From assembly GCF_029542785.1 (NCBI RefSeq), contig NC_083374.1:248001-312000 (forward strand): a stretch of DNA of 64,000 nt. The letters run 5' to 3'. Below the pieces are notes generated by a model that saw only the letters and a list, made by a program, of their open reading frames with translations, was not told where the DNA came from and ran no database searches. This document shows, in pieces, positions 7,958-64,000 of this stretch; position 1 is the first letter of the stretch, and each line of letters starts with the position of its first letter. The DNA is from Malassezia japonica. Taxonomy: Eukaryota; Basidiomycota; Malasseziomycetes; Malasseziales; Malasseziaceae. Made by a program: the position numbers and the translations under genes.

Positions 7958-9375
7958 ATGACCGCCTGCGTGCAGCGCGCTGCGTGTCCGGGCGAGCGCG
8001 ACTTTTGGCGCTGTGCGCTATGGTAAGTCCTTGGGCTTACGCAGGTCACCGGACGGGAGTCTGTTTCTGGCGCGCGCCGAGTCGCACGTCTTGCATATCT
8101 TCGATGCAAGCGATTTTCGGTGCATACAGACCTACCGTGCACCGACGCCCGTGCTGGACGTGAGCTGGTACCTGTATCCGGCGACGGCAGACGACGAGCA
8201 TGTGCACTGGTGCTTTGCAGTGAGTGGTCGGGATATGCCGGTGCGCCTCGTCGACGCGCGCATAGGCGAGGTACGTCGCGCGGCTCACGCAGTTGAAAGC
8301 GACCTATGCCATGGTCAACCATATCGAGGAGTACGTCGCGCCGAATGCACTTGCGTTTGGGCACGACTGTGCACGGTACGTTGAGTTTCTTACTCAGGCT
8401 GTACGGCGGCGTAGCCGAGGCCGTGGCCGTGTTTCAGCTCGCTGCGCCGGGCGCCAACCAGCACATGGCGCTCGACCTATCGGCGGCGAGTGCATCGGAC
8501 GCTCAGGGCGGCCAGCGCGGGCTTGTCTCGGCCTTGGCACCGGGGTGGGCACCGCGCGCATTTGACGAGGAGAACGGCGGCCAGCCGCTCGAGATTCTGG
8601 CCGTCGGTACGTTTTCAGGCACCATTGGCCTCTATGTGACCGACGCGCACTGGCTCGCGAATGCGGCCGTGCGCCGGCAGGCGCAGTGGGTCGCTCCGCC
8701 GCGCCATGGCGCCGAAGAGAGTGTCGCGGGTGAACACGTATGCCTGTGTGGATGGCGCGTCGCCGAGGGCGCTGGCATTACCCAGCTAGCCTGGCACCCA
8801 ATGCACCGCAACATTTTGGTGGTCGCCATGCGCCGCTCGTCGCACTTGTTTGTGTACGACACAAGTTATTTGTATGGCATGGCCGATCCTTTCCACTTTC
8901 GGCGACTGCCCCTAACCGATCCTTCGCTGATCGCGCGCTTGGATCGGCGTGCCAAGCACACACATCAACGCCTATGGTTCGATATCGACGCACAAGGCGA
9001 GTACCTCGTCACTGGCGACGACCAGGGCGACGTGTCGATTTGGGCGTGGGACACAATTCTCCAGGGCACGGCCCCCGGCGCGAGCGTTCCCCCTACGGTG
9101 CAGTTTCACGCCCATGCAGGTGCGTCTGTGCGACTGACGCAGACACGATCGGAAGTGCGCAATTTCAGCCTGGCCATCTTCAGTACGTATTGACCACGGC
9201 AGGCGCACGGCACTGGTCGGCGGTGCACAGCAGCAGCGAGTCAAGCGATGCGTCGTCCTCGGACGAGGAGCACGGGCCAGTTCCGAATGAGGCTGTGACA
9301 GCACTTTGGGCGTGGTCTAGGGCTCCACCACCTGATACCCACAAAACGCAGCAAACTACACTAGATTTCCCATAA
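7958..9375 (+). CDS. WD-repeat protein, WRAP53/TCAB1-like
   Basis: Five exons: 7958-8022, 8045-8270, 8293-8375, 8398-9119, 9143-9375, coding 442 residues. Introns are 22, 22, 22 and 23 nt and all are needed to keep one frame. The N-terminus FWRCALWSPDGSLFLARAE followed by HVLHIFDASD and VLDVSWY is the pattern of the WRAP53/TCAB1 WD family, whose animal member carries telomerase and small Cajal-body RNAs; yeast Swt21 is a distant relative. Later blades show ILAVGTFSGTIGLY, ITQLAWHPMHRNILVVAMR and YLVTGDDQGDVSIWAWD. The tail is acidic and Ser-rich (SSSESSDASSSDEE). A role in snRNP or telomerase RNA handling is inference. Convergent with the CYSTM gene, 73 bp apart. Confidence 0.85.
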
Positions 9376-9448
9376 CGGAGTACGAATTGGGTGTGATTAG
9401 GCTAGTAAATGCAGCGGAATTATTCGATTCAAGCGCGACTCGCTTCGA

Positions 9449-9921
9449 TTAGAAGACGGCGTCGAGGCAGCCAGCGCAGACGATGTCTTCAAGACAGCTG
9501 ATGTGTTAGTTTATCTCAGGACGCAATACGTACCAGCAGGCAAGGATACCAACGCAGAAGGCGCAGCTGAGGGTTAGTACCGTGCGTGGGAATGCGATGC
9601 GTACCAAGGACCGCACATACCGTCTGAGGGTTAGTATTGCTTACACGCGGCAAAAATACGTACGCTTCTCCTGAACACGAGCGCGCCTCTGGTCGAGGTT
9701 CTGCATAGGTTAGCACGCGAGCCCAATTGAACAAAAACATACCGAGCCGCCCATGGGGACCTGCTGCTGGTATCCACCGGGGCCGCCGTAGCCGCCGGGA
9801 CCACCGTAGCCGCCGCCGGGACCACCGTAGCCGCCCTGCTGGGGAGGGTACTACAAGGTTAGCAAAAATAAAAAACATCAGTAGGGATACATACATAACC
9901 ACCTTGTTGACCGTAAGACAT
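9449..9921 (-). CDS. small cysteine-rich tail-anchor (CYSTM-like) protein, six exons
   Basis: Exons on the minus strand: 9921-9895, 9850-9743, 9700-9664, 9623-9605, 9566-9534 and 9497-9449, only 273 coding nt for 90 residues. The N-terminal half is a Gly/Pro/Tyr/Gln-rich run of GGYGGPG repeats after MSYGQQGGY. The C-terminus is cysteine-rich (HGMCGPCCAFCVGILACCC, then LEDIVCAGCLDAVF), the pattern of CYSTM proteins, small membrane-associated stress proteins. The five introns are 44, 42, 40, 38 and 36 nt with textbook CTAAC branch sites, larger than those of neighbouring genes. Exon 4 is 19 nt. I chose its donor at 9604 because only that choice keeps the cysteine frame. The fold is clear; function is not known. 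Confidence 0.8.
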
Positions 9922-10211
9922 CTTGATCGAAGTTGTTGAAGAAAGGCAAAACCCACACGATTCGGGAGCCCACCGTATTTATCAAAGTCTGCGGCGTCCA
10001 TCACATGCACACCCATGCAGCCACTATGCAACACAGCCGCGCGTCCGTGGCTCCACTGCTCAATGTCATTACGTAACCGGCGAAATTGGCCTCATGCCAG
10101 CCTGCGGATTGTGCCTGGACCTCCACTTCACTATGTGGGGGCGGCGCATCGCCGGGGAAATTCCTCGGACGCGCGTGGTAAGCTATTTTTGGGAGATACA
10201 GAAAGTCAGCA

Positions 10212-12210
10212 CTAGGGGGGGGGGGATGCATGATCATCAGTGGTGCGTGTTTGAGCTTTTTCGTCGGGTGGGGTGGGGTGAGACTCGAGGCCTTGGTTAG
10301 GATTAGTTCCAGTTTCTTGCATATAGCCTTCCTGGCCGATCAAGTTCATGTCTTCTTGCTCCTTGTCCAGGTTGTGGAACACAATCCAGAAAATGATGGC
10401 ACCCACAAAGGCAAGACCGGCAAAGACACCGTAGTTGATCACGAACCGAGGGTTGGTCGAGAGCGCAGTAAAGGCCTCGCCAATCGCAGCGGCAATGGCC
10501 GTCGTGAACAAGCTAATGGCCATCACGATCGAACGCATGTTCTTTGGCGCCATGAGCATCGCAATCTCCATAGATGTGACAGACGCAAAGAGCTCACTGA
10601 TAGCCATCAGAATATACGAGCCAGACTGGATCCACACCGTCAAGGGCGAGTATACCGCCTCGCAGTGAAGATCGCCGACCATGACATCGTCGCGCACGTG
10701 TTCGCCGCAAGGGTTCTTTTTGTAGATATAGGCTTGCAGCACGGCGGCCCACACCATGGCGCCCGACGCAAAGAGAAATCCAATGGTAATGCGTTTGATG
10801 GGGGTCAAGGGAATTCGGAGGTAGTCCAAGAAGGGGTACAGACCCAGGTTGAAGACGAATACAAATACAATGACAAAGATGGGGTCGAGAAGCGCCACAA
10901 TCTCTGTGGGGGCAGATCCCGTGTCCATTTGACCAGCCTGGATAATCAGGTTGTTGATGATCTGGTTATAACACAGCCAGTAAAGGGGGAAGAGGACCAA
11001 TACCGCACAAGCCTTGATACCACGGCTCAGCTCGTCGATCCACAGATCGCTGTAGGTCATCCACGGCTTGCGCTCCGATTCGGGTATGTTGGAGGGCTTC
11101 GCACTGTCCCAGAAGGTGTCCGACTTGCACCGCTTGATCAGCGTGCGCAAGTTCCAACTCCAGTTGCTGCGCAGTGCCATGCCCCATGCCTTCAAAGCGC
11201 GGCTAAGGACGGACCCGTCCGGAGGGACCTTGACATAGTAGTTGCGGCCGAACCAGAGCACAGGGATCGGCAGGATGAATACAATAGTGGGTAGCATATA
11301 CGCAAGCCAGAAGCCCACAAACTTTTCGCAGTATACCATCCCCAGCTGGCCACAGAACGAGCCGATGTTGATCATCAAGTAGAACCACAGGTAGAGACGC
11401 GCCGTGGTGAGTGCGGGATCAATGATCACCTTTTCGCCCGACTTGAGCTTGACAACCGTCTGCTCTTTAATTTTGGTCTGCTCTGCAATGAGAATAGAAC
11501 AGTTGCTCTTGAAAAAGCCGGTACCAATGCCCATAATGATGATCGCAATGACGAAACAGGCCATAGCGCCACTTGTGTCGTCACCTTTGCTCGAAGGGAG
11601 GATGCCTGGGATAGCCGAGATGGTCAAGAGGATGTGGCCGACCATGGCAATCGCAACACCCACACAGAGGGTGTTGAAGCGGCCCAAATACGTGTCCGCG
11701 ATCCAGGCACCCAAAAGTGGAGTGACGTAGCACCAAAACTGGTTGAAGGTCACTAGACCGTTGGCGACTTGGCTGCCCTGTCCAAGCGCGCCGGACGGCC
11801 TACTCTCTCCATGCGCAGCGCCCGTGGGAGAAGGCCGGCCATCGACCGTGGGAATAGGATGGGCAATGAAATTGGTAAAAACCTGAGTAGCGCCGTAAAA
11901 GCTAAAGCGCTCGGCCAGCTCACAGATGCCAATGGCAAATACGGCAAGAGCCATTTTCTCGGGAACGCGTCGCAATGTCGCACGTTCTTCCGCACTGGGG
12001 AAATAGTTATCCTCCGCTGGCCTCGCATCTACCGCGTCGCCCAGGTGCGTGAGCGCCGGTGGAAGCCGCTCAGGCTCCTTCCCTGCTTCCCGGAGGTGTT
12101 CATTATACACCTCTTGCCCCACAAGTGCCTCGGCGGCATTCGAGTCGCCGTTCAAGTCCTCCTCTACATGTGTTAGCGTGTGGTTCAAATCATTCCAACG
12201 TACGAGGCAT
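10212..12210 (-). CDS. PTR2: proton-coupled di/tripeptide transporter (POT family)
   Basis: Plasma-membrane peptide importer driven by the proton gradient. Exons 12210-12204 (7 nt) and 12163-10212 give 652 residues; the 40-nt intron (12164-12203) ends CTAACACATGTAG. The start was chosen because the ATG at 12210 plus this intron gives an open frame (MPQEDLNGD...); the longer open frame upstream lacks an ATG at its head. Both PTR2 signatures are present: GAWIADTYLGRFNTL and FYLMINIGSFCG. Many hydrophobic segments fit 12 membrane helices with a central cytosolic loop. The stop sits next to an 11-base G run (10215-10225 on the plus strand), so the final PPP is worth rechecking. Confidence 0.95.
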
Positions 12211-12622
12211 GATTGGGCTGCCCGTGGAAGTAGGTTATGGAGAGGACTGAATGGGAAAGCCAAATGCATAAAACGCGCAAATGACTCGCGGTGCTTCTGT
12301 AACAAAACCCGTTAGACCCGGTGGGTCCCATGCATTTTGGAAGCACCTGACTGCGTCTAATTCGTGTTGGATGCAGGTTGGACAATTGAGAAAATTATCC
12401 CTAGCTTGGCGGCGACGATGGCCATCTCGCTCGTTGTGCACGATTTGATTGGCTGACCTTGGGAAGTGGTCCGGTCTAGATCCGAAAGCCCGATGGATGC
12501 AAATCGGCTTGCTGGCGCTACCCCAGTTTCGGACGGACAAGGAGATAGAAAGGCGTGTGTATGAAAACGTGCTAGTGGCTATCGCTTTGTAGAAAATATT
12601 CACAAGGAGGGAAATAAACCAA
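12211..12622. other. intergenic, 412 bp
   Basis: Lies between the PTR2 start and the stop of the next minus-strand gene, so it should hold the PTR2 promoter. An inverted CCAAT (ATTGG) is at 12448-12452, about 240 bp from the PTR2 start. No open frame with coding character and no tRNA-like fold was seen. Confidence 0.5.
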
Positions 12623-14077
12623 TTATGCCTGGCGAGCCAAGGGCGACGAAACCGCCTGGGGACTGGTAGATTTCGGCCCACTGAAACTCGCAGCCCTGGG
12701 ACTGGAACACAGTTTAGACATGGCCTCGCGGCGCGTACGGAGCGAGCGGCGGGCAAGGAAATTGTTTGCAAAGAATGATTCCATAGGCGGACCACGCGGC
12801 TGGCGCCGCGGCTGAATGAGCGCCGCGTGCGGCGGCTGGGGCGAACCTCCCGGGCGCGGCCCACCGTCGCTTGGACGGCTCGAGGGCTTGCCCGCGCCGA
12901 GGTCATTGTAGGACTGGCGCTTGTCCTGGCGGTTGTTGGGCGTGCTCGGCAGATTTTCGCCCCCGTGGTGGGTATCCGGTTGGCGTGAATGAGCGTTGCC
13001 TCCCGGCGAGTCCACGACGGGCATCGTACGCTGTCCGATGCGCATGCCCACCGCATTTACATCTGCAGGAAGGGGGGGGTGGGGCAGGGAAGGAATTTGA
13101 GAAGCTGATTCGATCACAATGGAGGGCGTAACAGCGCGATGGCGCTCGGGGGTATCCATGCCATACTGCTTTTCGTTCCGCTGTACAGTCGAGGTGCGTC
13201 GGGATTCGCTGCGCATGCCTCCCTGGGCCATGTTTCCACTCTCACGGTTCCTGTCGCGACCGCCGTACGAGTTGGGCCGCGGGCTACGCGAGAAGGAGCT
13301 GTCACTTCCATCGTACGACTGGTCGCCCGCATGCTGCTGCCGCAGCGCGTTCATGGCAGACATCGCCTTGGACACGTCGGGCGGCAGCTGCTTGGAACGG
13401 CGTTGGTCCGAGTCATGCGCGGAGCCCAAAGAGACGCCGAGCGACGAGCCACTGTAACGGTTGCTGGGCGAGCTGTTCGCGAGATGGGAAAAGTCCATCC
13501 CCTGGCGCTTGTTCATTCCATGCCGAGGGTTCGACGGCAACTCGTTGTGGGAAGAGAGCTGCTGTTGCTGGAGGAGTGCAGCAGACGCCTCCAGCTCAGC
13601 CTTTGCACGCATTTCCTGAGCCGCTTGGAGCTGGGCAAGGAGTTTGTTTTGCTGCATGACAATTTGCTCATTTTGTTGGTTTTGGAGGTGCAAAGCATTG
13701 AGCTGCTGTGTGAGCTGGGCCGTGGTGTTGGTTTGGAAGTTGTTGGAAACGCCAAACGGCCCATTCATGGGGTCAGACATCATGGCAGCATTTGCACCGT
13801 TGAACCAGTCAAGGCCCGCCATGCCCGACTGGGGTTGACCATGAGATGCGCCGTAAGCATCGGCAAGGACAGAGGGATTGCCCGGCTGGCCCACCATAGG
13901 CCATGCCATCACATCAGGAACACCGCCTGCCCACATGGCATCTTGGGGCATGGACTGGAAATTTTGGTGGGGCATAGGCATCGATCCCGACGGAGGGCGG
14001 CCACTGCGGGATGAGCGGGCCGAGTCCTGGTGAGCGGAGCCTCGCTTTGGGTTGTATTTCGCATCCTGGCGCTGCAT
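12623..14077 (-). CDS. Q/N- and Ser-rich protein of unknown function
   Basis: Single exon, 484 residues. I do not recognise the family. The start is the ATG at 14077 (MQRQDAKYNPKRGS); the frame runs on a few codons upstream without another ATG. Visible parts: a basic, Ser-rich N-terminus, a Met/Pro/Gln-rich stretch, a Gln-rich probable coiled coil around residues 120-175 (AQLTQQLNALHLQNQQNEQI), long Ser/Arg/Gly-rich disordered sequence with SP/TP sites, and a basic C-terminal block FFANNFLARRSLRTRREAMS that looks the most constrained. Low-complexity Q/N content fits a regulatory, RNA-granule or signalling adaptor protein, but nothing decides it. A TATATA at 14111-14116 lies 34 bp upstream of the start. 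Divergent from the peptide-precursor gene. Confidence 0.8.
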   Translation of the reverse strand: MQRQDAKYNPKRGSAHQDSARSSRSGRPPSGSMPMPHQNFQSMPQDAMWAGGVPDVMAWPMVGQPGNPSVLADAYGASHGQPQSGMAGLDWFNGANAAMMSDPMNGPFGVSNNFQTNTTAQLTQQLNALHLQNQQNEQIVMQQNKLLAQLQAAQEMRAKAELEASAALLQQQQLSSHNELPSNPRHGMNKRQGMDFSHLANSSPSNRYSGSSLGVSLGSAHDSDQRRSKQLPPDVSKAMSAMNALRQQHAGDQSYDGSDSSFSRSPRPNSYGGRDRNRESGNMAQGGMRSESRRTSTVQRNEKQYGMDTPERHRAVTPSIVIESASQIPSLPHPPLPADVNAVGMRIGQRTMPVVDSPGGNAHSRQPDTHHGGENLPSTPNNRQDKRQSYNDLGAGKPSSRPSDGGPRPGGSPQPPHAALIQPRRQPRGPPMESFFANNFLARRSLRTRREAMSKLCSSPRAASFSGPKSTSPQAVSSPLARQA

Positions 14078-14597
14078 TCTTCGTGCGGACAAGAACCAAA
14101 GACAGCAGCGTATATAGACAATACCAGGGAGAGACCGGTAGAAAGTTGATCAAGGCGTAGATTTCATATACCGAGCGGAGTGTCTGTCAACACGAGCAGC
14201 CCACGCCAAGGAAAATCACGCGCCTAGACCGAACACCCCTCCTAAGACTAAGCGCAGCTGTCAGCAAGTGTTGGGCAGAGCCAAGCTAGGGCCGCGCTAT
14301 GCCATGTAATCACGTGCCATATATGAATGGGCGGCCAATGACGTCGTTTTATGCAAAGTCTGTGAAAGTTTGAACACGAGGCACCCTGTAAGCAAGCGCA
14401 GTTTGTGGGCGCATGCAAAGGCGCAGATTGGGCCAGTGTTTGGCCACCAAAGTGCAGCTTTAGTTTTAGGCGAGGCTCGGCGCGTTAAGGGCATCATCGC
14501 TCGCCATCTTTTGTACTCCTGGGTTTATAGATTTGCCGCGGGTACTACTTTTGCAACTGTCTTTGGCAGCTTCACCTCCCACCATTCTTTTCCCAGG
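14078..14597. promoter_or_regulatory. divergent promoter region of the peptide precursor
   Basis: A 520-bp gap between divergent genes, one of the longest in the window. It holds a palindromic CACGTG (14311-14316), a CRE/ATF-like TGACGTC (14339-14345) about 255 bp before the precursor start, and TATATA at 14111-14116 facing the other gene. These are sequence matches only; no factor is shown to bind. A large upstream region is in keeping with a regulated secreted product. Confidence 0.45.
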
Positions 14598-15239
14598 ATG
14601 CAGTTCAAGCTTTCTGTTTTGTTTGTTGTCCTTGCCGTGAGCATTACGCAGGCCAGCGCCGCTCCGGCCGCCCCCCTCGTCAAGCGTGATCAGCCCGAGG
14701 GCAAGTGGATCCCCCCCTACATCGGCCAGGTCGAGAAGCGCGACCAGCCCGAGGGCAAGTGGATCCCCCACTACATCGGCCAGGTCGAGAAGCGCGACCA
14801 GCCCGAGGGCAAGTGGATCCCCCCCTACATCGGCCAGGTCGAGAAGCGTGACCAGCCCGAGGGCAAGTGGATCCCCCCCTACATCGGCCAGGTCGAGAAG
14901 CGCGACCAGCCCGAGGGCAAGTGGATCCCCCCCTACATCGGCCAGGTCGAGAAGCGTGACCAGCCCGAGGGCAAGTGGATCCCCCCCTACATCGGCCAGG
15001 TCGAGAAGCGTGACCAGCCCGAGGGCAAGTGGATTCCCCCCTACATCGGCCAGGTCGAGAAGCGTCGCAAGCCCGAGGGCAAGTGGATTCCCCCTTACAT
15101 TGGCCAGGTCGAGAAGCGCCAGGAGGAGGGCGGTGAGGGTATTCCCCCTAACATCGGCCAGGTCCTCGATGAGGAGAAGCGCGAGGAGCAGAAGGTCAAC
15201 GGCAAGTGGATTCCTGCCTACATCGGCCAGGTCCTCTAA
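14598..15239 (+). CDS. secreted precursor of tandem Kex2-type peptides
   Basis: 213 residues, single exon. Residues 1-21 are a typical signal peptide (MQFKLSVLFVVLAVSITQASA), then APAAPLVKR, then ten repeats separated by KR. Seven are DQPEGKWIPPYIGQVEKR or a one-residue variant (copy 2 has PHY), the eighth begins RK, the ninth is degenerate (QEEGGEGIPPNIGQV) and the tenth ends the protein as GKWIPAYIGQVL. The KR sites are the signature of Kex2 processing in the late Golgi, so secretion of several short W/Y-containing peptides is predicted. The plan resembles ascomycete alpha-factor precursors and other fungal Kex2-processed repeat proteins, but the peptide is not one I recognise. It has no C-terminal CaaX box, so it is not a lipopeptide pheromone. 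Receptor and role are unknown. Confidence 0.88.
   Translation: MQFKLSVLFVVLAVSITQASAAPAAPLVKRDQPEGKWIPPYIGQVEKRDQPEGKWIPHYIGQVEKRDQPEGKWIPPYIGQVEKRDQPEGKWIPPYIGQVEKRDQPEGKWIPPYIGQVEKRDQPEGKWIPPYIGQVEKRDQPEGKWIPPYIGQVEKRRKPEGKWIPPYIGQVEKRQEEGGEGIPPNIGQVLDEEKREEQKVNGKWIPAYIGQVL
14688..15236 (+). repeat. 54-bp coding tandem repeat
   Basis: Eight consecutive 54-bp units (14688-15119) coding the 18-residue peptide, followed by a 63-bp degenerate unit and a final 54-bp unit. Units 3-6 differ from each other mainly by cgc/cgt in the Arg codon, so they are nearly identical at DNA level. This suggests recent unequal exchange or gene conversion, and copy number is likely to vary between strains. Confidence 0.93.
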
Positions 15240-15617
15240 ATCAACAAAGAATCTACGGGATATTGGTTCTGCACGGGACTCGAACATACGCGGACTTGAT
15301 TCGCTATCGTTGAGGGCTATTTGTGATACGAAAGCTCTTGATGGTATAACTGCACCGCAGGAACGGTCATATATCTCGGTGACCGTGCAACCACTCACTT
15401 GATACTCGGAATTGTATGTCTATGCAGTATTATCCCTGCGATATGGCTGGATGGCTCATGGATGGCTGGCCACGGTTTCGAATGAATGAGCATGCATATT
15501 AGTGCAACGCTTCTTGGGAATTTGGAATACTTTTTGAAAATCAGATAGGGATGACGGTATTTTAGGTAGACGGGTTATAGGAAAATGCCAGCAGATTACG
15601 CAAAGCACCGGCTATAG
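15240..15617. other. convergent intergenic, 378 bp
   Basis: Lies between the 3' ends of the peptide precursor and BEM1. It is more AT-rich than the flanking genes and should hold both 3' UTRs and polyadenylation sites. No supported gene. Confidence 0.5.
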
Positions 15618-17504
15618 TTATGTACTAGCGAAGAGCAACAACTTCTTTCCGAGCGAGAGAGAAGCTTGCATCCATCCATCGAGATCGTCGTCATTCGTGA
15701 GCGTAGGTGCATCCGGCTGTTCGCTGAATTGAAGTACACGAATGTCTGAGCCAAGTCGTTCTTGGACCTTGGTCAAGAGAGATAGGTAGGTGAAGTTGGG
15801 AGGCATGCGCACTGCCAGGATTTGTTCCGCATCGCCCACGCGCGTCACCTTAATACGGTAATACGGGGGTGCATCCGAACCCAGCGGCACAATGGAGCTC
15901 CGACGTGTAGACACAGAAGTAGTGGGCGAGCTGGAGCCGGTAGGGGAGTGACGTTTTGGACTTTGTGCCATACGCAACCCTTGCAATTGGGAAGCGAGGT
16001 CAAAGTCGAGTGGATTCAGCGGATCCGAAGCGCGCACTTTGGAAGGGTAAATCTGCTTGGACGGCGAGACGGATGTTTTGCACCGATCGCCAGGCCGCAG
16101 CTCCAAAAAGGCGCGCAGAGGGGCAGAGCGCAGGACGTGCTCAGGGCATGCACAGAGACTGCGCATGTACAGATCGAGGTCCGCGCGGCGCTGCGAGGCA
16201 GCCTGCTCGTCAACATGGGCCAGAGACACTGGAAGGGTCGGGAGGATTCCTGGGTGCATAGAAGGGTCATTACTGGTATTGCTGCCGGTGAATTCTTGAG
16301 CAAGTGACATGTGAAACTCGATGAAATCTTCATACAGTCGGTATAAAATCAAGTCGCGCACTTCGTGCCCTTGGGGTTTGTCCGGCGCATCGGTAGAGGA
16401 GAGTGTAGAAACATAGGAAACGCGGATTCTGTACCAGTAGTCATTCGGTTCGTAATGAAAAGAGTCCACAAAAGCCGACGACATCGTGCCAGAAGGGAGG
16501 AAATACATCGACATCGTAAGCGAGTGATCATAAGATCCCGAGCTCGGCGATTTGGCTTCAGGAGTGGGAGAGAACGAGTCGAGCGGCGACCCTATTGTGC
16601 CGCCAGTCCGCACCGCAGTGAAGTGGTCGTCCACTTGTGGCGACTGCATTAGCCCAGGCGCTTTTACGGCAGCCTCGCCGGTGGATTGAGCGTCAGGAGG
16701 GAGGGGTGGTAGGGGACTGTCCCTTGTCTTGGTCAGTTGTGTCTGCTCGGTATGAGAGAGCTCAAATTTGCCCAAGGGTATAGCATTTTGACGGAAGCGC
16801 TGATTCTTCTCTTCCCACTCCTGCACCGACGGAATCTGTCTCAGGATCTCTTGTACGTTGGGGCTTGCCACTGGCTCGCCGGATGCCGTATCGCGGAACA
16901 TGACAAAGGCGATAGGGATGAGACCGGGGATACCCAGCCGCCCCAGAGGTTTAGCCACAAGCCATTCCTTGTCGGACCGAGCCACGATCAAGAGGCTGTC
17001 GCCCTCCTTTGCATCCAGCTCCTGTGACCGTTCGGCGAAGAAATCGTACTTGACTGTTGCAAACCAGGTACCGTTGGGCCGCCCTGGCGCAGAGTTACGC
17101 TTGGCAGACGACTTCATCACGCCAAGCTGGTCAGGACGCGGCATACCGTTGGGGTTGAGCTCGCTTCGACTGGTCAAGTTGAAGGCAGCAGTAGGCGAGC
17201 TACGCTGTAGAACTTCAAAGTGAGACTCGGGCACCAAGCCTCGCGCGTTTGTCACAGGATTACAGGCTTCGATCCAGCCTGCGCGCGGCCCGCTTTTGTA
17301 TGCCACAACGTGGAAAAAATCGCCTCGGTGAAAGCTCAGCTCGCAGGGGCTCTGCGACTCGTAATTCATCGCAGCGCGGATGACCTGCTTAGGCGGGCGC
17401 AGTGAAGCCGCATGCTTTATGCCAACCACAGGTGTGGAAGCAGAGCGCGAGCTTCCCGACGGCCGATCCCTTAGGGTCATACGTAAATCTTTGAGCGACT
17501 TCAT
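15618..17504 (-). CDS. BEM1: polarity scaffold Bem1/Scd2
   Basis: Scaffold that joins Cdc42, its exchange factor and PAK kinase at sites of polarised growth. Single exon, 628 residues. Domain order is diagnostic: SH3-1 (about 41-100), SH3-2 (about 147-203), a PX domain (about 345-470, YWYRIRVSYVST ... LYEDFIEFHMSLAQEF) and a C-terminal PB1 domain (about 547-628, YYRIKVTRVGDAEQ ... FSEQPDAPTLTNDDDLDGW). A Ser/Pro-rich linker (PLPPLPPDAQS) sits between SH3-2 and PX. The start is the ATG at 17504; the codon before it is GTG in the same frame. Confidence 0.96.
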   Translation of the reverse strand: MKSLKDLRMTLRDRPSGSSRSASTPVVGIKHAASLRPPKQVIRAAMNYESQSPCELSFHRGDFFHVVAYKSGPRAGWIEACNPVTNARGLVPESHFEVLQRSSPTAAFNLTSRSELNPNGMPRPDQLGVMKSSAKRNSAPGRPNGTWFATVKYDFFAERSQELDAKEGDSLLIVARSDKEWLVAKPLGRLGIPGLIPIAFVMFRDTASGEPVASPNVQEILRQIPSVQEWEEKNQRFRQNAIPLGKFELSHTEQTQLTKTRDSPLPPLPPDAQSTGEAAVKAPGLMQSPQVDDHFTAVRTGGTIGSPLDSFSPTPEAKSPSSGSYDHSLTMSMYFLPSGTMSSAFVDSFHYEPNDYWYRIRVSYVSTLSSTDAPDKPQGHEVRDLILYRLYEDFIEFHMSLAQEFTGSNTSNDPSMHPGILPTLPVSLAHVDEQAASQRRADLDLYMRSLCACPEHVLRSAPLRAFLELRPGDRCKTSVSPSKQIYPSKVRASDPLNPLDFDLASQLQGLRMAQSPKRHSPTGSSSPTTSVSTRRSSIVPLGSDAPPYYRIKVTRVGDAEQILAVRMPPNFTYLSLLTKVQERLGSDIRVLQFSEQPDAPTLTNDDDLDGWMQASLSLGKKLLLFAST

Positions 17505-18044
17505 CACAGATGCTGCTTACTCTGGCCTGCTCCCACACTCACAAGAAATAGACGAGAGCAGGGGCAGAAGGGCGTAGCAAAACAAAAAAGCAACAAACCA
17601 AACAACGATCAAAAGAAGGTTTGTATCCAACTGTGATCCATTTGCACAGCTCGAAGGCAGGGTAGCGAATAGGATTCGCAACCACCCCAGAACACAATGC
17701 TAGCGAGCGCGAATACTGCTTACGAATGTTTTGTCATAATGCAATGCTGCGGATTCTTTTATGCAGGGCAGTGCCCCGGTAATTCGCGCAACCTGGGTGT
17801 CTTCTGGGGACATTCCCAAAATAGGACATGGAGACGCGCACGGGACGAAGTGGAAAGTGCATTACCAAACTAGCACTATGTAATAGGAGTTGCGGGGTAG
17901 GGATACAAAAGAGGGAATGCAGTGAGATAGGGAAGGGGGAGAAGAAGGGGGTCCACGTCGTCGAAACACTCCTAGCCAGGCAGCCCAAAAAAACCCAAGC
18001 ACCGTCCAAACCAGCTGGACAAGCACGTTCTTACCAGAGATACT
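17505..18044. other. intergenic, 540 bp
   Basis: Between the BEM1 start and the GH128 stop, both on the minus strand. It should hold the BEM1 promoter and 5' UTR and the GH128 3' UTR. An A-rich stretch (about 17578-17605) is the only notable composition. A 91-codon minus-strand frame at 17734-18009 has no coding character and is not annotated. Confidence 0.5.
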
Positions 18045-19163
18045 TTACTGAGTGATCGCGTTGAACAGCGGGCTGGGGGTCTGGCCATTGGCGAGCTGGT
18101 TCGTAGAGGAGACGCCCTGCATGTTCTGCATGACGCCGAACGGAGCGTACGCCTCGACAAAGTCCTGCTCGTTGAACCAGTTGGCCATTTCGGTGTGGAA
18201 GTTGTATGCCTGACCAGTGGAGCACTGCGCACCACCGTTGAAGTTCTGGCAAGCGTACTCGGTAACCCAGATAGGCTTCTCGTACTTGTTGTGCCAGTGG
18301 TTCACGTACTTCTTGAACTTGTTCGTGGAGGTGTCGTAGTAGTGCAGCGCCACCGCGTCGATCGCGCTCCACACATCGGGGCACGTCGAGCGGAAGTTGT
18401 CCATCCAGGTCTCACCGCTCGGGGCGTTGGTGGTGACAGGGGAGACCACGTACCAGCCGAGGCCCTTGAGAGGGAGGATGTTGGCACGCATAAGACCACA
18501 CGCAGTGTTAACCGACATGTCCGACTGGCCCTTCTGGTTCGGCTCGTTCATACCAAGAACACACTTGCCTTGGTTGTGCTTGCCATTGAGGTTCTGGAGG
18601 ACGTGCTGACGGAAGTCATCCTCGTTCCGCTCACCCCAGAGCATGGGGCAGAACGTGATGTTCGTCGGCGCGTTCCTCCAGCCCGGCGTGGCGTCCCACG
18701 AGTAGTACCAGGAGACCTTGTCGTTAATCCAGCGGTTAATGTTCATGCTTCCCTTGTTCGCCCACGCCAGACCAAGCTTGCCGCTGTTGGACAGCGGCGC
18801 GTTGCCCGAGTTGGACGAGGACGAGGACGAGGACGACGAAGGAGAAGCCGACGACGACGACGAGCCCGTGGACGAGCCAGTGGACGAGCCCGAACCCGAC
18901 GAGTTCGAGCCCGACTGCGTCGAGGCAGTCGAGTTCGACACCGCCGCGTTGCGGGTGTGCGACGAGCCACTCGAGCTAGACTGATGCTGGTTCCACGAAC
19001 CGACCACAGAGTGCAGACCAGCTGCAAAGCCCTGCAGAAGAGAATCAGCATTGCCGTTGTTCCTGCGGTCCACCATGTGCCTGTCGGCGGGTGGGAGCAC
19101 CGCAGCCTGTGTCGCAGACACAAGCGCAAGCGCAGTAAGGACAGTAGAGACAGTGAGCTTCAT
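18045..19163 (-). CDS. secreted GH128-type glycoside hydrolase (Asl1-like)
   Basis: 372 residues, single exon. Signal peptide MKLTVSTVLTALALVSATQA, a short region, then a long Ser/Gly/Thr tract (about residues 60-118) likely to be O-mannosylated, then a catalytic domain (about 125-372) beginning GKLGLAWANKG. The GH128 family (glycosyl hydrolase catalytic core) cleaves beta-1,3-glucan. The two expected catalytic glutamates are visible in GMNEPNQ (about residue 207, acid/base) and WVTEYACQ (about residue 302, nucleophile). Probably acts on the cell wall or outside the cell; no GPI signal is seen at the C-terminus. Divergent from the WLM gene across 488 bp. Confidence 0.92.
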   Translation of the reverse strand: MKLTVSTVLTALALVSATQAAVLPPADRHMVDRRNNGNADSLLQGFAAGLHSVVGSWNQHQSSSSGSSHTRNAAVSNSTASTQSGSNSSGSGSSTGSSTGSSSSSASPSSSSSSSSSNSGNAPLSNSGKLGLAWANKGSMNINRWINDKVSWYYSWDATPGWRNAPTNITFCPMLWGERNEDDFRQHVLQNLNGKHNQGKCVLGMNEPNQKGQSDMSVNTACGLMRANILPLKGLGWYVVSPVTTNAPSGETWMDNFRSTCPDVWSAIDAVALHYYDTSTNKFKKYVNHWHNKYEKPIWVTEYACQNFNGGAQCSTGQAYNFHTEMANWFNEQDFVEAYAPFGVMQNMQGVSSTNQLANGQTPSPLFNAITQ

Positions 19164-19651
19164 CGCACGCTGCGTTAGAAAGAATGTAAGGAAGGGTGAT
19201 AAAAGACGTGCGAGCTAGCGCACAAGGGAGGGGGAAGCGGTAGAATGGGGTTAGAGAAGAAGATCCATGTGGCCAACGCGCCTTGTTATACATTTCTGCG
19301 CGGCGTTGCATGTACAGCCCCGTCTTGGCACGAGGCGCGAGAGAAGGTCGTCGTAGAGTTTAATGGCTTCTTCGCAACGATTCACCGGTGTCTGCACCAC
19401 TCATAATCGCCGTCTGGCATATCGGGAGCCCATAGAGGGATAGAGCCGTGCATAGAATTTGCCCTTCTCCCCACTTGCGTCGCGCTCGGACCCTGTGCGG
19501 CGAAGCTTGATTTTGGACAGGCGTCATAGGCCGCCGCGCCGCAACACTGCAGGTGGAGTTTAAACGTGCAGGTCGATCGGGGCTGACGTAATACGACGCG
19601 TCAGTGCGTGGAGAACGCGCGGAGCACGGCGTGGCGAGCGTGGCGAGGAGC
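19164..19651. promoter_or_regulatory. divergent promoter region, 488 bp
   Basis: Between the GH128 start and the WLM-protein start. I see no clear TATA box or known operator. A minus-strand open frame at 19360-20016 extends across it but only mirrors the WLM gene. The size fits a regulated promoter for the secreted enzyme. Confidence 0.4.
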
Positions 19652-20705
19652 ATGCACGAGGTGTGGACGGTGCGGATGCGCCACCGGGGCGTGGAATACG
19701 GGCTGGAGGTGTATTCAGATGACCTCGTTTCCAGATTCCAAGAGCGGGTGTACGAAGCGACGTCGGTGCGGCCCGAGCACCAGAAGCTCATGGCGCAGCG
19801 CGTTCCTGGCGGCCCCATGCCGACGCTTACGCGCACGGTACAGCGCCAGGAGGCGGGCGCGACACCGCTCGAGGCATGCGGTCTACGAGATGGCGCGCTG
19901 GTGACCGTCGTCGGTGCCAAGGACGACGAAATTAACGCGATCCACGAGCAAGAGTCGGCGTGGGCGAGGCGCAATGCGCCTCGCCAGCTGCACCCGAGCC
20001 TCTTGCGCGGAGCCAAGCCGCGGTCGACTGCGACGCCCGCACCCCGCCGCGTCTTTGGACAGTGCGTGGTGCACCCGAATACCCCCTCGCACGACAGATT
20101 TAACGGGCTGGTTCTGCGCTACTTGGAACGGCTCGCAAGCGACCCTGCTGTGCTGCATGTGTGTCGTACGCACGGCTACGAGGTCGGGACGCTGACAGAG
20201 CTGCTGCCGCACGAGCACCCCAACCTCTTGGGCCTGAACGAGAACAAAGGTCAGCGCATTCTCTTGCGCATCCGTACCGACGCTGCCGATGGTACGCGCG
20301 ACTACAAAACGACACGGCGCGTGCTCATGCACGAGCTGGCGCACAACGAGGTACGTACGACCGACTCACCAGATTTCCGAGCATCCCCCTGAATTCAAGA
20401 TCCTCAACAGCAAGCTGAATGCCGAGGTCGACGCTTACGAGCGCGCCGAGCTCCACGGCACGCACCGGCTGCACGATGGCCCGGCGTACGAGCGGGTGGA
20501 GCAAGTCCAGCAAGGCGGATCGTATACCCTGTCTGGCGGCACGTCGCGTGCCCCTCCCCCCTCGGAGCAGCTCGAAGAGCGGCGAGCGCGCATTCTCCGT
20601 GCCACCGAGACGCGCCTCGCGCTGCTCGACCAGGAAATCAATGCCAAGTGCGGCGACGCTGCCGACGCCCCGCCGTCTGTGCACGAGGCGCAAAACCAAA
20701 AATAG
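19652..20705 (+). CDS. ubiquitin-like plus WLM-domain putative metalloprotease
   Basis: Exons 19652-20350 and 20373-20705, 343 residues; the intron (20351-20372) is 22 nt. Residues about 1-85 look like a ubiquitin-like domain (LEVYSDDLVSRFQERVYEATSV ... LVTVVG). The WLM (Wss1-like metalloprotease) domain follows: RFNGLVLRYLERLASDPAV, LLGLNENKGQRILLRIR and the zinc-binding HELAHNE (about residue 227), joined by splicing to ISEHPPEFKILNSKLNAEV. Wss1 proteins cut DNA-protein crosslinks and act with ubiquitin/SUMO and Cdc48. The UBL-WLM arrangement is that of the fission-yeast ubiquitin/metalloprotease fusions rather than of budding-yeast Wss1. The start is the first ATG in frame. Convergent with APM3, 21 bp apart. 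Confidence 0.9.
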
Positions 20706-30348: not shown

Positions 30349-30385
30349 TGTAGTGTAGGAGCTCCACAGGTTGGTAATGGACTCG

Positions 30386-51949: not shown

Positions 51950-54668
51950 TTAGAGATGCGCCCCCTCCTGCTCGTAGAGGGTCGTGAGGGGGACATGGTC
52001 GCTGGCCCGGGGCCCACGCAGGAACGCGGGCCACGGCACACGCGCCGCCTGCCCCACGCACCATCCATAGACCGCGTCGAGGGTCCGCTCGAGCTCGCCG
52101 GTGCCGATGCCAAACTCGGCGCCGGTATCGTCGATCGTCGGCAGTGCCGCGGCCTCGCGCGTGAGCTCGTCGTGCTCTTCTTTCGCGACGTGCTTGAGCA
52201 GGTCCTTGATCGTGACCATGCCGACGAGCAAGCCGCGCTGCGCCACGAGGATCACGCGGGGACCCATGCGCTTGAACAGGTCCGCGACCACCTCCAGGTC
52301 CAGGTCGGGCTGCACGACCAGCGGCGTGGGGTCGACCCACGCCCCGAGCTCGATGCTTGGCAGCTCGGCGTGCTCCTCCTCGGGTGCAGGCACGTCCATC
52401 TCTTCTTCCGCAAAACTGTCGTCGTACGGCTGCGGCGCCGGGCGAAAGAAGCGCCAAAAGTCGTCCGCACCCACCTCGGGCTCGCTGCGCTGCGTCGTCG
52501 CGAGCGCAAACGCCTCTGAGCTCGCGGGGTGGAAGAGGCAGCGCGCGGTGCGCGGCAAGGCACGCTCGTACTTGGCCTTGCGCACCGCGTAGCGCAGCTC
52601 GCTGCGCGACGCGTAGCCCAGCAGCGTCGCGTCGCTCTCGCTCTGGACGACCGGGAAGCCCTTGTACGCGCCGTGTGCGAGCTTTGTCTCGACCTCGGCG
52701 AGCGTCTGTCCGTCGGCGTAGAGGACGGTGGGGCGGCGGGACAGGAGCGCGCCGACGTTTGTCCCGAATACGTGGTCTTCCTGCTCGAGGAACGGAAAAC
52801 CATTAAACTTGATCACGCGGTCGGACACGCCGCCCTTGCCGTGCAGGTCTGCGACGAGCTTCGCCGTGCCGACGACGAGCATGATCGGCAGAATGTACGT
52901 CAGCGCGCCGGTCAGCTCGAACATGATGACGACGACCGCGACGGTGATGCGTGTGACGCCCGCAAGCGCGCCGGCCGCGCCCATCACCGCGTACGTTCCC
53001 GGGGTGATGCACGGCTCGCCGGCCGTGCACGCCGAAAAGAGGCGCCACGCCGGGTAGGCCGTCTGGAGCGCCTTGACCAGCACGCCGACCATGCGCCCAA
53101 ACGTGGCGCCGACGGCCATCGACGGGATAAAGATGCCCGCCGGGACCTTGCACCCGTACGAGAGAATCACCAAGACAAAGCGCAGGACCGTGGCGACCAG
53201 GAGCGAAAACGCCATCGACCACTGGACGCGCGACTGGCACAGCAAGTCGTTCTCGCTCGCGCCTTCGCACTGGCGAAAGAGCACCTCGAGCGACTCGGTC
53301 ATGTCGAGGCGCAGGAAGCGGTTAAAGTAGGTGACGAGCGCCGTGATCCCCGCGAGGAACACGGCCTCCTCGACGCCGCGCTGTGCGAGCCGCTTGCGGC
53401 GGAAGCGCTGCACCTGCAGGTTGTAGCGCACGACATACTCGCCATAGAGGCCGCCCATAATGCCGATCAGCACGTAAAAGACCAGCTCAAAGTAGTGCCA
53501 GTCGCGCGAGTACTCGACCTGGAACAAGACGAGCTTGCCGGTGCGGAACGGGTTCATGAACGAGAGCGCGACGGTGCTCGCGAGCGCACACAAAAAAGTG
53601 CGCCACATGGTCGACGCCGGGAAGTGGCTCGTCATCTCCTCCAGCGCAAAGAGCACGCCGCCGATCGGCGAGCCGAACGCGACGGCGACGCCGGCCGCGC
53701 TCGCGGCGGTGAGCAGCTCACGCAGCTTCGCCTGGCTCGGCACGAGCCTGCGCAGGAACTGCGCGACGACGTTGCCCATGCAGCACGCGACGTGCACCGC
53801 CGGCCCCTCTTTCCCGACGCTTAGCCCCGAGGCGATCGCGAGCGGCAGACCGATGCTCTTGATGACCAGCGTCCAGAACGACAGGAAGCCGTCGATGATA
53901 AAGCCTGAGAGGACGCACTTGATCTCGGAGATGCCGCTCCCGGCCGCGTACGGCGCATAGTGCTTGACGAGAAACGCACACACAAACGCAAAGAGCACCG
54001 ACATGACAATGTAGACGAGGTACGCCGGCAGCGTCCACTCTGCCCACTCGATCCACTCGGCACACGTCTCGACCGGCCCAATGGGCGCCGGCTCGGACAC
54101 GTTGGCACGCAGCGCGAGCTTGGTCGCCTGGACCAGTGCGCTGCTCACGGTCGTCGTCGCGGTCGCCTGCGCGGCGGCCGCAATCCCGGGGGGCACCGAC
54201 GCGGCGCCGGGGCCGGCGGGGTCCATCTGCTCCCAGCAGCAGAACTTTTTGCTGAGCCACCAGCCCGTGGAGCAGTAGCCCATCTTTAGGTCGGACACCC
54301 ACTCGGTCACGACGCTGATCATTGCCATATTAAGGCCAATGAGGATCCCTGCGTGAGTCGCGCGACGTACCGACCAACACCACAACACCATTCTCGGCCG
54401 CGGAGAGGAGCGCGGTGTGCAGCTTGTACAGCAGCGGCCCTGCCAGCGCACCGATCGACTGCAGCGCCCCACGCACGTACGCGCCAAACGGCAGGCGCGC
54501 GGCCAGCAGGTCGAGGCCGCGCCATGCGAGCGAGCCTTGCTCGTGCACCTGCTCGGCGATGCGCTGTACCTCGGCCTCTTGGTGCATCATTTTCACGCGC
54601 TCACGGCGCCCATCGACGACCCAGTCCACGGTCGAAAACTGCATTAGTCGCAGGACGTACACGCTCAT
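51950..54668 (-). CDS. GEF1: CLC-family chloride channel/transporter (Gef1-like)
   Basis: Chloride channel or Cl-/H+ exchanger of endosome, Golgi or vacuole. Exons 54668-54371 and 54348-51950 give 898 residues; the 22-nt intron joins AENGVVVLVG to GILIGLNMAM. Filter motifs are intact: GSGISEIK (about residue 233), GKEGPAVH with the gating glutamate (about 278), GVLFALEE with the proton glutamate (about 332), and PAGIFIPSMAVGA. Two CBS domains fill the C-terminal third (FLEQEDHVFGTNVGALL; VADLFKRMGPRVILVAQRGLLVGMVTIKDLL). Both glutamates support exchange activity rather than a plain channel. Starts 81 bp from the SAC3 stop on the same strand. Confidence 0.96.
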
Positions 54669-58162: not shown

Positions 58163-59483
58163 ATGGCCGCCGCGGGCGAACGCGTGTGGAGCGCCTTGCT
58201 CGCCGGCGCGCGGCGCGAGGCCGGCGCGACGACGGTCGTGCTCGGCGATCCGGGGTCGGGCAAGTCGACGCTTGTTGCGAGTATCTGTGCGAAAGCGCCA
58301 AAGAAGGAGGCGGCCGGCGCGCTCGACTATACCTACACACACGACGAGCACGGGCTCGTGCATGTCTATACGCTGCACTCGGCGGACGCGAGCGTCGCGG
58401 CGACGCTCCCGTACGCGTTCCCGCCGGTGAGCGAGGGGCGAGCGTCGCTGCATGCGGTGCGTGGCGCGCGCTTTGTGCTTGTGCTCGACTGGCACGCACC
58501 GTGGCGGTTTGTCGAGCAGCTCGAGGCGTGGCTCGCGCTCGTGCGCCACGTCGTGGGGTCTGCCTACGCGCCCGACGAGGACGCGGTGCGTGCTGCGATG
58601 CAGCACGAGCGCGTGCATGCGCTGGGCGGGGGCCGCGCGCTCCCCCCCGGCCTCCTCGCCGAAAACCTCGGCGTGGAGATCACGATTGTGCTCGCCAAGA
58701 GCGACGCGGTGCCGCACCTCCTCAGCGAGCGGCACATTACCGAGGCGCAGCTCGACTATGTGCAGCAGGTCGTGCGTACGATTGCCATGCGGTACGGCGC
58801 GGGGATCGTCGCGACGTCGCGGCAGCGCCCCGGCTCGTTCGAGGCCGCGCGCGCGTTCCTCGCCACGGGCGCCGGCACGGCCTCTACCAACGACGCGGCG
58901 CTCCTGTGCGTCCCGCGGAGCTGGGACTCGTGGAGCAAAATTGCGGTGCTCGACGAGTCGTTTTCGTCGCAGGACACGGCCGCGGCGTGGGAGGCGGACC
59001 TCGGCGGGGCCGACGTCCTGCGCACGCAGTACGCGCAGCGCGTCCCCCCCGCGCGGCGCGAGCGAGGCGCAGGCCGCGGTGCCGATGCCCGACTCTGCCG
59101 CGTTCCTCGCGCAGCTCTACGCGCAGCAGCAGGCGTCCGGCGAGGCGTCCGCGGACGACGTCCCGGGCGCCGCACGCAACGTCCTGGGCCCCCCGTCGCC
59201 GCGTCGACGCTCGACATGCCCGCGGTCGAGGCGGCGCTCGCCGAGCAGCAGGCGCGCCCCGACGAGACGCCGCGGCGCACGCGCCTGACGATGGCCGCCG
59301 CAGACCTCGAGCCGCAGGCCAACTCGCCGGGCGTCACGACGCCGAAGCAGACCGAGGTGCTACACAGCTTCTTCCAGAGCCGTACGTCGTGCTACTTACA
59401 CAGTCCTCAAAAAGCCGGGCAGCCCGGGCTCGGCGCCCGGCACGCCGAGCGCCCGGCGGCCACGCGCGAGGGACGAGTCATAG
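58163..59483 (+). CDS. cytoplasmic dynein light intermediate chain
   Basis: Cargo-adaptor-binding subunit of the dynein motor. Exons 58163-59381 and 59404-59483, 432 residues; the 22-nt intron (59382-59403) restores the conserved FFQSLLKKPGSPGSAPGTP. The N-terminal GTPase-like fold has a P-loop GDPGSGKST, VLDWHAPWRF, ITIVLAKSDAV and PRSWDSWSKIAVLDESF. Between two C runs (59044-59050 and 59189-59194) the reading frame looks shifted by one base: another frame there gives VPMPDSAAFLAQLYAQQQ while the annotated frame gives Arg-rich sequence. Both frames lack stops, so the gene reads through either way. Its stop overlaps the end of the next minus-strand gene by six bases. Confidence 0.9.
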
Positions 59484-62900: not shown

Positions 62901-63044
62901 GCGGAGCGGCGTGCGCGCCGGCTTTTTGAAGAGGTGCGGCGGGAGCTCCACCGTGTACGCCCAGAGCCACTGGAGCGCATCCTGCGTAAAGAGCGACGAT
63001 GTAAAGCTAAAGCCGCGCCCCAGCGCGGCCGTCGCTGTGCCCAT
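59949..63044 (-). CDS. pentatricopeptide-repeat (PPR) protein, probably mitochondrial
   Basis: Single exon, 1031 residues. The start MGTATAALGRGFSFTSSLF was chosen as the last ATG before the divergent YAF9 gene; the longer open frame overlaps that gene. Helical PPR units are seen from about residue 470 onward: YNALLNAYVEAGHWSAAFGTF, YTTMLKAHVLRGAPVSRVL, YALVLQSACDARDLRLAESL, HYTILLHALLRAGKSRRARH, YGVLIRSYAESDPTSHVA and AWTSLLNAYRYAGDVEGALR. PPR proteins bind organelle RNA; in fungi they act in mitochondrial mRNA stability or translation. The basic, Arg-rich N-terminus is compatible with mitochondrial import. Target RNA unknown. Confidence 0.88.
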   Translation of the reverse strand: MGTATAALGRGFSFTSSLFTQDALQWLWAYTVELPPHLFKKPARTPLRAAPRSLGVRRLEPGVAVPAQRRMRQSAARTGVATPTIAPIDAPARRARAAEALEGIDASDVASVRRGARRVLRLEKTGDAAERLDTLLCAALAQERPFHEHAWLAALQIETSVARGAHHDALAQLSALLDAHAELLKEVRALGDAGAMQRLRHKPGLAVLYHAAKAVLGEGRRRVQAELRTGPSASAPALAAWLWANPLALALVQPVFPKVCQAIYTILAALPNPVGAVRALDAHRAGLVAAALANRHAPETAAQVVLECSRVHGMPPEPLVRRVLRVLIEGGGRRVVIAPLVQLVDTDEAQHATLRLLATYDATHGDADGVARRLARLPEAMAAPMRVHTSLLLAAHAGDVEGVEALYETSFGRALRDAYERPDAEPYVYHLLLAYAARDDYLGARGVLDAYKMHRAVPERMFLVLLRIAARHADADAALHLVLEMEASLVTSTTILHLVRALGAARLADRAASVMAYYRAQGVVLGRRVYNALLNAYVEAGHWSAAFGTFRYLQQHPRPAMRPDAAVYTTMLKAHVLRGAPVSRVLRLLWSMRRHGLVPDERTYALVLQSACDARDLRLAESLFELMDEALVPSHGGATLHHYTILLHALLRAGKSRRARHYLDAMRARGMEPSPVTYGVLIRSYAESDPTSHVAGELAMQLTKSAAAERRTTLGEGVAYENMLLPLIHVHSRRGELEAADALFAQLRAACAPASPSLRAWTSLLNAYRYAGDVEGALRVWDELYLHTIERVPSVGADQRSMLCFPLSIIMATLTHDGQFKRIAQIWQRVKRDGFAFDAHNFNQLAVALACSGRVWEALQVIEQVLPERPPALESALAPRMLASDALRDEEAYARDPLYQPPAPSAEGPWAPQVASVARPPNRRAAVADVDPAAATLDGDAPDSAWLDPALLAPSHAWFATYDTLREVCAAMDRMPKKTRARKRVRTGVAGADALAAPPELVPAAEALHAFPIAAARLAEYEQRAARWDAP

Positions 63045-63103
63045 CGCCACCGGTGGGGACGCCGAGTCGTGGCAGAAGACACAAAACGGCTGACTAAACC
63101 ACC

Positions 63104-64000
63104 ATGGCCTCGAAGCGGATGCGGGTGCGTAGCGCGACTGACGCAGGGCCTTGCCATCTCGCGCCCGATCCTCATTGGGTCGACCGCGACGCCGCTCACT
63201 CCCGAGGAGCGCCTCAGTGCGCCGCCCGACCACACGCACCGCTGGACGGTCGCGGTGCGCAGCGCGGCCTCGGCGCCGCTTGCGACGTGGTCTGCCGACA
63301 AGAACGACGCGCAGCCGAATGCCACGATCGGGACACGCTTGCGGGACAGCGAGGTGGACCTGCACAAGGCGGTCGGCAACAAGGACGACCTGTCCTACTT
63401 TATCAAGCGCGTCCAGTTCCGCTTGCACGAGACCTACGCACAGCCTACACGAAGTACGTCACGACGCTCACCAGACATCGACCGCTCGCCGTTTAGCGTG
63501 ACCGAGACAGGATGGGGCGAGTTTGAGATCCAGATCAAGATCTTCTTTGTGCCAGAGGCGGGGGAGAAGCCGCTGACGATCCTCCACCACCTCAAGCTGC
63601 ACCCTTGGCCGAGCGGGCCGGTGGGCACGACGGTGCCGCCGCCCGAGGCGCCGGCCGACGGCACGGCGCCGCCGCCGCCGCCGCCGCTTCCGCCGGCGGT
63701 GCACTCGTGGCAGTACGAAGAGATCGTGTTTCCGGAACCGCTCGAGGCGTTCTACGAGATCCTCGTGGCGAATCCCCCGACGCCGTGGCCCGCAACGTCG
63801 GCGCAGGCATTTGCCGACGCGGCAGACTACGAGGCATACTGCAAGGCCCGCGACGCGGGCGAGGACGCCAAGGCGCCGCACCCCGTGCACACGCCGAGCG
63901 GCCACCTCTTTGAGGCGCTCTCGCTCGAGGCGCAGCGTGCCGAGGCCGATCGCATCGACCTGGCGCGCGCCAACGCCGTGCACCAGCTCGACGCGGACCG
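63104..64000 (+). CDS. YAF9: YEATS-domain protein Yaf9 (3' end beyond window)
   Basis: Histone acyl-lysine reader of the NuA4 and SWR1 complexes. Three exons seen: 63104-63124, 63147-63453 and 63475 to the window edge; introns are 22 and 21 nt, the second being the shortest in the window. Splicing gives MASKRMRGLAISRPILIGST, then HTHRWTVAVRSAAS, KRVQFRLHETYAQPTRNIDR and VTETGWGEFEIQIKIFF, the YEATS core. LTILHHLKLHPWP and YEEIVFPEPLEAFYEIL follow, and a helical C-terminus (LSLEAQRAEADRIDLARANA) is cut off by the edge. Two inserts lengthen the domain: about 25 residues after the HTHRW block (SADKNDAQPNATIGTRL) and a Pro-rich one (nt 63630-63700). Confidence 0.93.

Follow-up and report, generated by a model that had tools for sequence, protein, structure and literature searches.

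Short introns of the window and the genes that carry them

We examined a 64,000-nucleotide (nt) stretch of the Malassezia japonica genome (8,433,779 bases in 9 contigs), hereafter the window (C5:248001-312000), for a class of very short introns with a length peak at 22 nt; all coordinates are positions in the window, and intron calls and branch points are predictions from the DNA sequence. A sequence-only reading of this DNA had placed 33 introns in 18 genes, 26 of them no longer than 28 nt and 16 of exactly 22 nt, and the class that it proposed (21-28 nt, peak at 22 nt) is upheld by our curated set of 25 introns across 15 genes, of which 17 are 22 nt long and the others 21 nt (one), 23 nt (three), 24 nt (three) or 28 nt (one). 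The set is restricted to introns of 21-28 nt, and all 25 have a GT donor, a branch motif with its A and an AG acceptor on the sense strand; the donor is strong and mostly GTACGT, and the branch motif, CTNAC, is strong too. They are listed below, "motif and frame" standing for these motifs together with an open spliced frame.

6349-6376 (-): 28-nt intron, S-adenosylmethionine synthetase; junction at residue 16, within the Pfam PF00438 match (12-109)
8023-8044 (+): 22-nt intron, WD40 protein (WRAP53-like in the sequence-only reading); motif and frame
8271-8292 (+): 22-nt intron, WD40 protein; motif and frame
8376-8397 (+): 22-nt intron, WD40 protein; motif and frame
9120-9142 (+): 23-nt intron, WD40 protein; motif, and a spliced frame giving 441 residues; not used by the automatic model
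20351-20372 (+): 22-nt intron, WLM-domain protein; junction at residue 234, within the WLM match (155-274)
21899-21920 (-): 22-nt intron, AP-3 mu subunit (APM3; Pfam PF00928); junction at residue 140, within the alignment to five named Malassezia proteins
22461-22482 (+): 22-nt intron 1, RPB12; junction at residue 27, within the RPB12 alignment (12-64)
22578-22599 (+): 22-nt intron 2, RPB12; junction at residue 59, within the same alignment (12-64)
27850-27871 (-): 22-nt intron, THO2 (N-terminal); motif and frame; the naming match, THOC2_N (130-349), stops short of the junction
28459-28480 (+): 22-nt intron 1, choline-transporter-like protein; motif and frame; Pfam PF04515 (325-488) stops short
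30080-30102 (+): 23-nt intron 2, choline-transporter-like protein; motif and frame
30281-30302 (+): 22-nt intron 3, choline-transporter-like protein, branch CTGAT; motif and frame
30711-30732 (+): 22-nt intron 1, divergent eIF6 paralog; junction within the BLASTP alignment to eIF6
30836-30857 (+): 22-nt intron 2, divergent eIF6 paralog; junction within the same BLASTP alignment to eIF6
31206-31228 (-): 23-nt intron, TIM9; junction at residue 104 of the queried model, within the TIM9 alignment (33-109)
31461-31482 (-): 22-nt intron, TIM9, after ATG GAC T; splicing gives an 89-residue TIM9 starting MDLSQLSSSEQ; 41 nt in the automatic model
31930-31953 (+): 24-nt intron, eIF6; junction at codon 112, within an end-to-end eIF6 alignment
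50233-50256 (-): 24-nt intron, eIF3 subunit L; motif and frame; Pfam PF10255 (171-575) stops short
51015-51038 (-): 24-nt intron with branch GTTGAC, DUF202 protein; junction at codon 47, bordering the DUF202 match (48-105)
54349-54370 (-): 22-nt intron, CLC chloride channel (GEF1-like); motif and frame; Pfam PF00654 (234-614) stops short
54639-54660 (-): 22-nt intron, CLC chloride channel, branch CTAAT; motif and frame
59382-59403 (+): 22-nt intron, dynein light intermediate chain; junction at codon 407, within the DLIC match (160-420)
63125-63146 (+): 22-nt intron 1, YAF9; junction at residues 7-8, within the first YAF9 alignment stretch (4-46)
63454-63474 (+): 21-nt intron 2, YAF9; junction at codon 110, within the second YAF9 alignment stretch (86-210)

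The junction lies within a protein alignment or domain match in 12 of the 25 introns, namely two each in RPB12, YAF9 and the eIF6 paralog and one each in eIF6, TIM9, S-adenosylmethionine synthetase, the WLM protein, APM3 and the dynein light intermediate chain. RPB12 is restored by excising its two 22-nt introns, both junctions falling in the conserved core, and the junctions in eIF6 (24 nt), YAF9 (22 and 21 nt) and TIM9 (23 nt) lie within alignments to solved proteins. Intron retention splits the genes, as seen model by model. The spliced AP-3 mu protein finds its best match in a 395-residue database protein (97% over 74%), followed by proteins of Malassezia furfur (60%), Malassezia sp. CBS 17886 (53%) and M. 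yamatoensis (47%). Gene finders that miss 22-nt introns or read through them would cut or mis-start genes, and there are two apparent mis-annotations, P0005 being without the first APM3 exon and P0001 stopping at intron 2 of the eIF6 paralog.

This paralog (30377-31120, +) is a 247-residue protein with a Pfam eIF-6 domain that adjoins eIF6 itself (31596-32357) and shares 41% identity with it over 230 aligned positions; its nearest database protein is a 155-residue fragment (80%). The 24-nt intron of eIF6 and the first 22-nt intron of the paralog have a common offset, 334 nt from the ATG, and different sequences, suggesting that the intron is older than the eIF6 duplication, or was copied with it, and that the lengths have diverged since. 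Judging from the protein of a relative, P0001, intron 1 of the paralog is seemingly 21 nt there and read as coding, a length that fits 16 nt between donor and branch plus a 4-nt tail.

Two weaker short candidates, 6707-6730 and 40444-40468 (protein not sensible), were left out of the 25, and likely longer introns at 9624-9663, 9701-9742 and 12164-12203 lie outside the set. The WD40 domain matches of the WRAP53-like protein are weak and under cut-off. A separate observation concerns positions 14598-15239 (+), which encode a protein of 213 residues that probably has a signal peptide and contains repeats of DQPEGKWIPPYIGQVE spaced by KR, an arrangement that we take to resemble that of precursors processed by Kex2-type proteases.

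Recurrence of the 22-nt class and the frame test

A motif scan (GTRNGT, then CTNAC, then the first AG no more than 12 nt downstream) was applied to the window and to a genome sample of 20 evenly spaced 10-kb stretches outside it (200 kb; 264 kb with the window, GC 63%). Within the window, GC is lower at 8001-20000 (57-58% vs 60-71% across the remainder). The scan returns 16 window matches of 22 nt (15 distinct introns), with one of 21 nt, three of 23 nt and two of 24 nt, and the peak recurs when, as the sequence-only reading had proposed, the tabulation is carried beyond the window: the distinct candidates of the sample number 62 at 22 nt, one at 21 nt, 10 at 23 nt, three at 24 nt, eight at 25 nt, two at 26 nt, none at 27 nt and six at 28 nt. 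By chance few such matches arise, 100 dinucleotide shuffles of the window giving on average 0.19 and never more than 2 at 22 nt against the 16 observed. Changed-donor controls yield none at 22 nt in window and sample alike and changed-branch controls 0 to 1 in the window, while GTACGT with changed branch motifs yields 0, 1, 5 and 5 in the sample vs 42 for CTNAC; the two counts of 5 may reflect genuine introns whose branch sites differ. An exact 24-nt pattern occurs 27 times genome-wide and its reversed form once.

Gene models combining site weights with a flat length prior, the weights being trained on the 200-kb sample itself, assign 22 nt to 65 of the 148 introns of that sample and 28 nt or less to 99 of them. 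In the window their errors were corrected by hand (the TIM9 intron of 41 nt for 22, two 14-nt introns and two fused gene pairs), and a codon-score gene finder with bare GT-AG ends was dropped because it produced spurious long introns. Extrapolation from the 62 introns in 200 kb gives an estimate of some 2,600 such 22-nt introns per genome, in which longer introns with the same donor type are also present.

In the frame test, codon usage was scored in 120 nt on each side of a candidate and the frames were compared between the spliced and the read-through form. Away from sequence ends there are 76 22-mers, of which 35 are clearly coding to either side; 33 of the 35 are in frame solely when spliced, none by read-through and two by neither. 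All five 23-mers are splice-consistent and none read-through-consistent, and all eight candidates of 24-28 nt are splice-consistent, three of them, with lengths divisible by three, being also read-through-consistent. The splice-consistent share is 5/8 at 29-40 nt and 3/11 at 41-60 nt, so that the motif scan alone is untrustworthy at these lengths. Splice-consistent control candidates number 1/7 for the wrong donor TGRNTG, 9/35 for GTY donors and 20/38 for a purine branch motif.

Branch geometry, spliceosome parts and the origin of the length

The sequence-only reading gave 15-16 nt from donor to branch adenine and 5-7 nt from there to the 3' splice site, ranges that hold as described and can be refined to essentially 16 and 5 nt. 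In the curated introns, donor G to branch A measures 16 nt in 18 cases, 17 nt in four, 18 nt in two and 21 nt in one, and from branch A to the last G the distance is 5 nt in 20, 4 nt in two and 6 nt in three. Across the 264 kb the donor-branch gap is 16 nt in 83 matches, 17 nt in 11, 18 nt in six and 15 nt in one, and the design of the scan holds no preference for 16. Gaps under 16 nt occur in 10 matches, five of which have an acceptor in common with a match of gap 16-19 and are second readings of introns already counted. The leading pair of gaps, 16 with 5, accounts for 75 matches and the runner-up, 17 with 5, for six. Among 79 22-mers, position 20 is C in 70 and position 19 is C or G in 68, and since only three bases (18-20) separate the branch A from the AG, a pyrimidine tract cannot fit. 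Donor position +4 is C in 58/79 and A in 1/79; in the model-based introns it is A in 2/99 of those up to 28 nt and 0/49 of the longer ones. Paramecium introns avoid lengths divisible by three, and here the 62 distinct candidates of 23-40 nt include 12 with such lengths, while the two remaining length classes hold 25 each (one-sided p 0.011), a suggestive avoidance in a candidate set that includes chance matches.

The genome holds one full-length U2 small nuclear RNA (snRNA) gene (123.1 bits, over the gathering score, with GUAGUA present) and one full-length U6 snRNA gene (80.8 bits, over the gathering score, with ACAGAG on the strand opposite the printed one). The U2 gene, which the sequence-only reading had suggested inspecting for changes, is conventional. 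The U1 model RF00003 finds no match in this genome and likewise none in any control genome. Genes for Slu7, Prp18 and Yju2 are present, each over cut-off; the Prp18 stretch contains candidate introns of the same class (22 and 23 nt), and the N-terminus of Yju2 looks conventional. Yeast needs Slu7 and Prp18 little when the branch lies near the AG, and a loss of both, expected from the close branch-AG spacing, was rejected since both genes are present. The best match to the U2AF large subunit scores 224 bits, under the curated cut-off of 310. RED and Smu1 are required by human short introns (PMC6692369); RED_N and LisH_TPL find no match in this genome, nor in any control genome. In Saccharomycotina a U at +4 goes with loss of METTL16 (PMC10581693), an explanation of the +4 bias that we rejected here, as a PF05971 match exists, in a family that also takes in bacterial enzymes, and SNRNP27 is present. 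Among the few parts examined, the spliceosome is without sign of reduction.

The motifs in 25/25 introns, the frame test (33/35) and the 12/25 junctions within alignments agree with the earlier view that these introns are of spliceosomal type, and we consider it very probable that they are ordinary U2-type introns shrunk to a floor. Deletion would shorten introns until the helices at the branch site and at the donor could approach no further; the least donor-branch spacing for this spliceosome would be 16 nt, at which introns would accumulate, and the tail from branch A to intron end would have a floor of about 5 nt, the two gaps together making 22 nt. With one to three bases between branch motif and AG and no pyrimidine tract, the 3' splice site is probably the first AG beyond the branch. 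More weakly, lengths divisible by three would be avoided, since leaving such an intron in place does not necessarily expose the message to decay. The following points weigh against this interpretation. For 13 of the 25 introns no alignment crosses the junction and the basis is motif plus open spliced frame (four in the WD40 gene, three in the choline-transporter-like gene, two in the CLC gene and one each in TIM9, THO2, eIF3L and DUF202). The intended negative control CTNBC, with the branch A replaced, is splice-consistent in 5/6 22-mers, so that either the donor and the length suffice to mark an intron or branch sites other than CTNAC are sometimes used. Finally, the floor could in part be avoidance of 21 nt, a length divisible by three, and not geometry.

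In an unlikely alternative, length is set chiefly by translation surveillance, 22 being short and of the form 3n+1, and the geometric limit lies lower; the scarcity of 3n lengths at 23-40 nt (12/62) speaks for it, but 19 nt (one case) and 20 nt (two cases), neither divisible by three, are nearly absent in 264 kb, so that a floor is required as well as surveillance. We give still less credence to a mobile 22-nt intron (an introner-like element) that recently copied itself, its length being inherited and not selected. Mild preferences at the free positions (G at 8 in 51/79, C at 9 in 44/79) and an excess of near-identical pairs, alike at 7 or more of the 9 free positions (34 vs 20.4 expected from column shuffles), would fit such copying, but zero pairs are equal at all nine, the co-located introns of eIF6 and its paralog differ in length and sequence, and the same ends are common to introns of 23-28 nt. 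Errors of sequencing or assembly as the cause of broken reading frames have next to no probability: most lengths are not divisible by three and each break resembles a frameshift, but errors would not bring a sense-strand GTACGT...CTNAC..AG, nor pile up at one length, and the motif and phase results already refute them. If translational bypassing or programmed frameshifting stood in for splicing, the frame would also be restored by skipping a fixed short stretch, but this is just as improbable, since the stretch skipped bears splicing motifs (donor, branch and acceptor) and the genome has U2, U6, Slu7, Prp18 and Yju2 genes.

Beyond the preferred reading of ordinary introns shrunk to a floor, a stronger joint claim is tentative and in our judgement falls somewhat short of an even chance: that a fungal spliceosome which is otherwise conventional meets a hard physical floor at the 16-nt gap, on which the introns of this yeast now sit, with U2 and tri-snRNP arranged differently at activation, that 22 nt is the smallest working fungal intron, and that decay of unspliced messages polices the lengths. 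Should the floor prove physical, the least donor-branch distance usable by a conventional spliceosome could be read cleanly from this yeast, and gene-transfer tools exist for Malassezia (PMC5654937).

Comparison with known short introns

Tiny introns are known elsewhere and short ones in Malassezia, and 22 nt is not a record. Malassezia genes have been described as having 'very short introns' (PMC7426719), and in M. restricta KCTC 27527, where introns were predicted with RNA-seq at a minimum set to 15-20 nt, there are 2,150 introns with a mean of 37.2 and a median of 30 nt (PMC9241646, PMC6473144). That species is of the same genus and likewise has short introns, but the exact 22-nt mode, the branch spacing and the floor are not described in the available parts of those reports. 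More generally, no 22-nt mode or branch spacing for Malassezia was found in the open-access papers searched, which did not include two reports on the M. sympodialis genome, from 2013 and 2017, the later of which may already describe it.

The sequence-only reading placed these introns near the lower limit of any spliceosome, which is not borne out: Stentor coeruleus has introns of 15-16 nt (PMC9505925) and Bigelowiella of 18 nt (PMC12316389). The Stentor branch A lies at position 10-11, a donor-branch distance of 9-10 nt being possible (PMC9505925), and a 16-nt floor is thus not universal and would belong to this spliceosome; 22 nt may be the lower limit for this fungus. Stentor and the present genome both show one dominant length, a fixed branch position, a 5-nt tail and the presence of snRNAs. 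The Stentor introns are 7 nt shorter, AU-rich and without a strong branch consensus, in a ciliate, whereas those described here have a strong branch motif at a GC of 63%. Stentor also has altered N-termini in the branching factors Cwc25 and Isy1, the Yju2 N-terminus being conventional (PMC9505925). In human, by contrast, the comfortable donor-branch minimum is put near 50 nt and explained by the B complex, estimated to require some 52 nt (PMC6692369), and on the stronger claim above U2 and tri-snRNP would be arranged differently here.

Type B introns of Trichomonas, about 25 nt long with a shortest of 23 nt (PMC12316389), and the introns of Yarrowia resemble the present class in having the branch at a fixed distance from the AG and no pyrimidine tract (PMC2483917), but Yarrowia introns are long and Trichomonas introns few. 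Paramecium and Nyctotherus share with M. japonica a whole-genome class, of about 25 nt (PMC5014332, PMC2633312), although both are ciliates and the present genome is that of a GC-rich basidiomycete. In the literature covered we found no account of a mode at exactly 22 nt in which both spacings are fixed and which occurs together with conventional U2, U6, Slu7, Prp18 and Yju2 genes.

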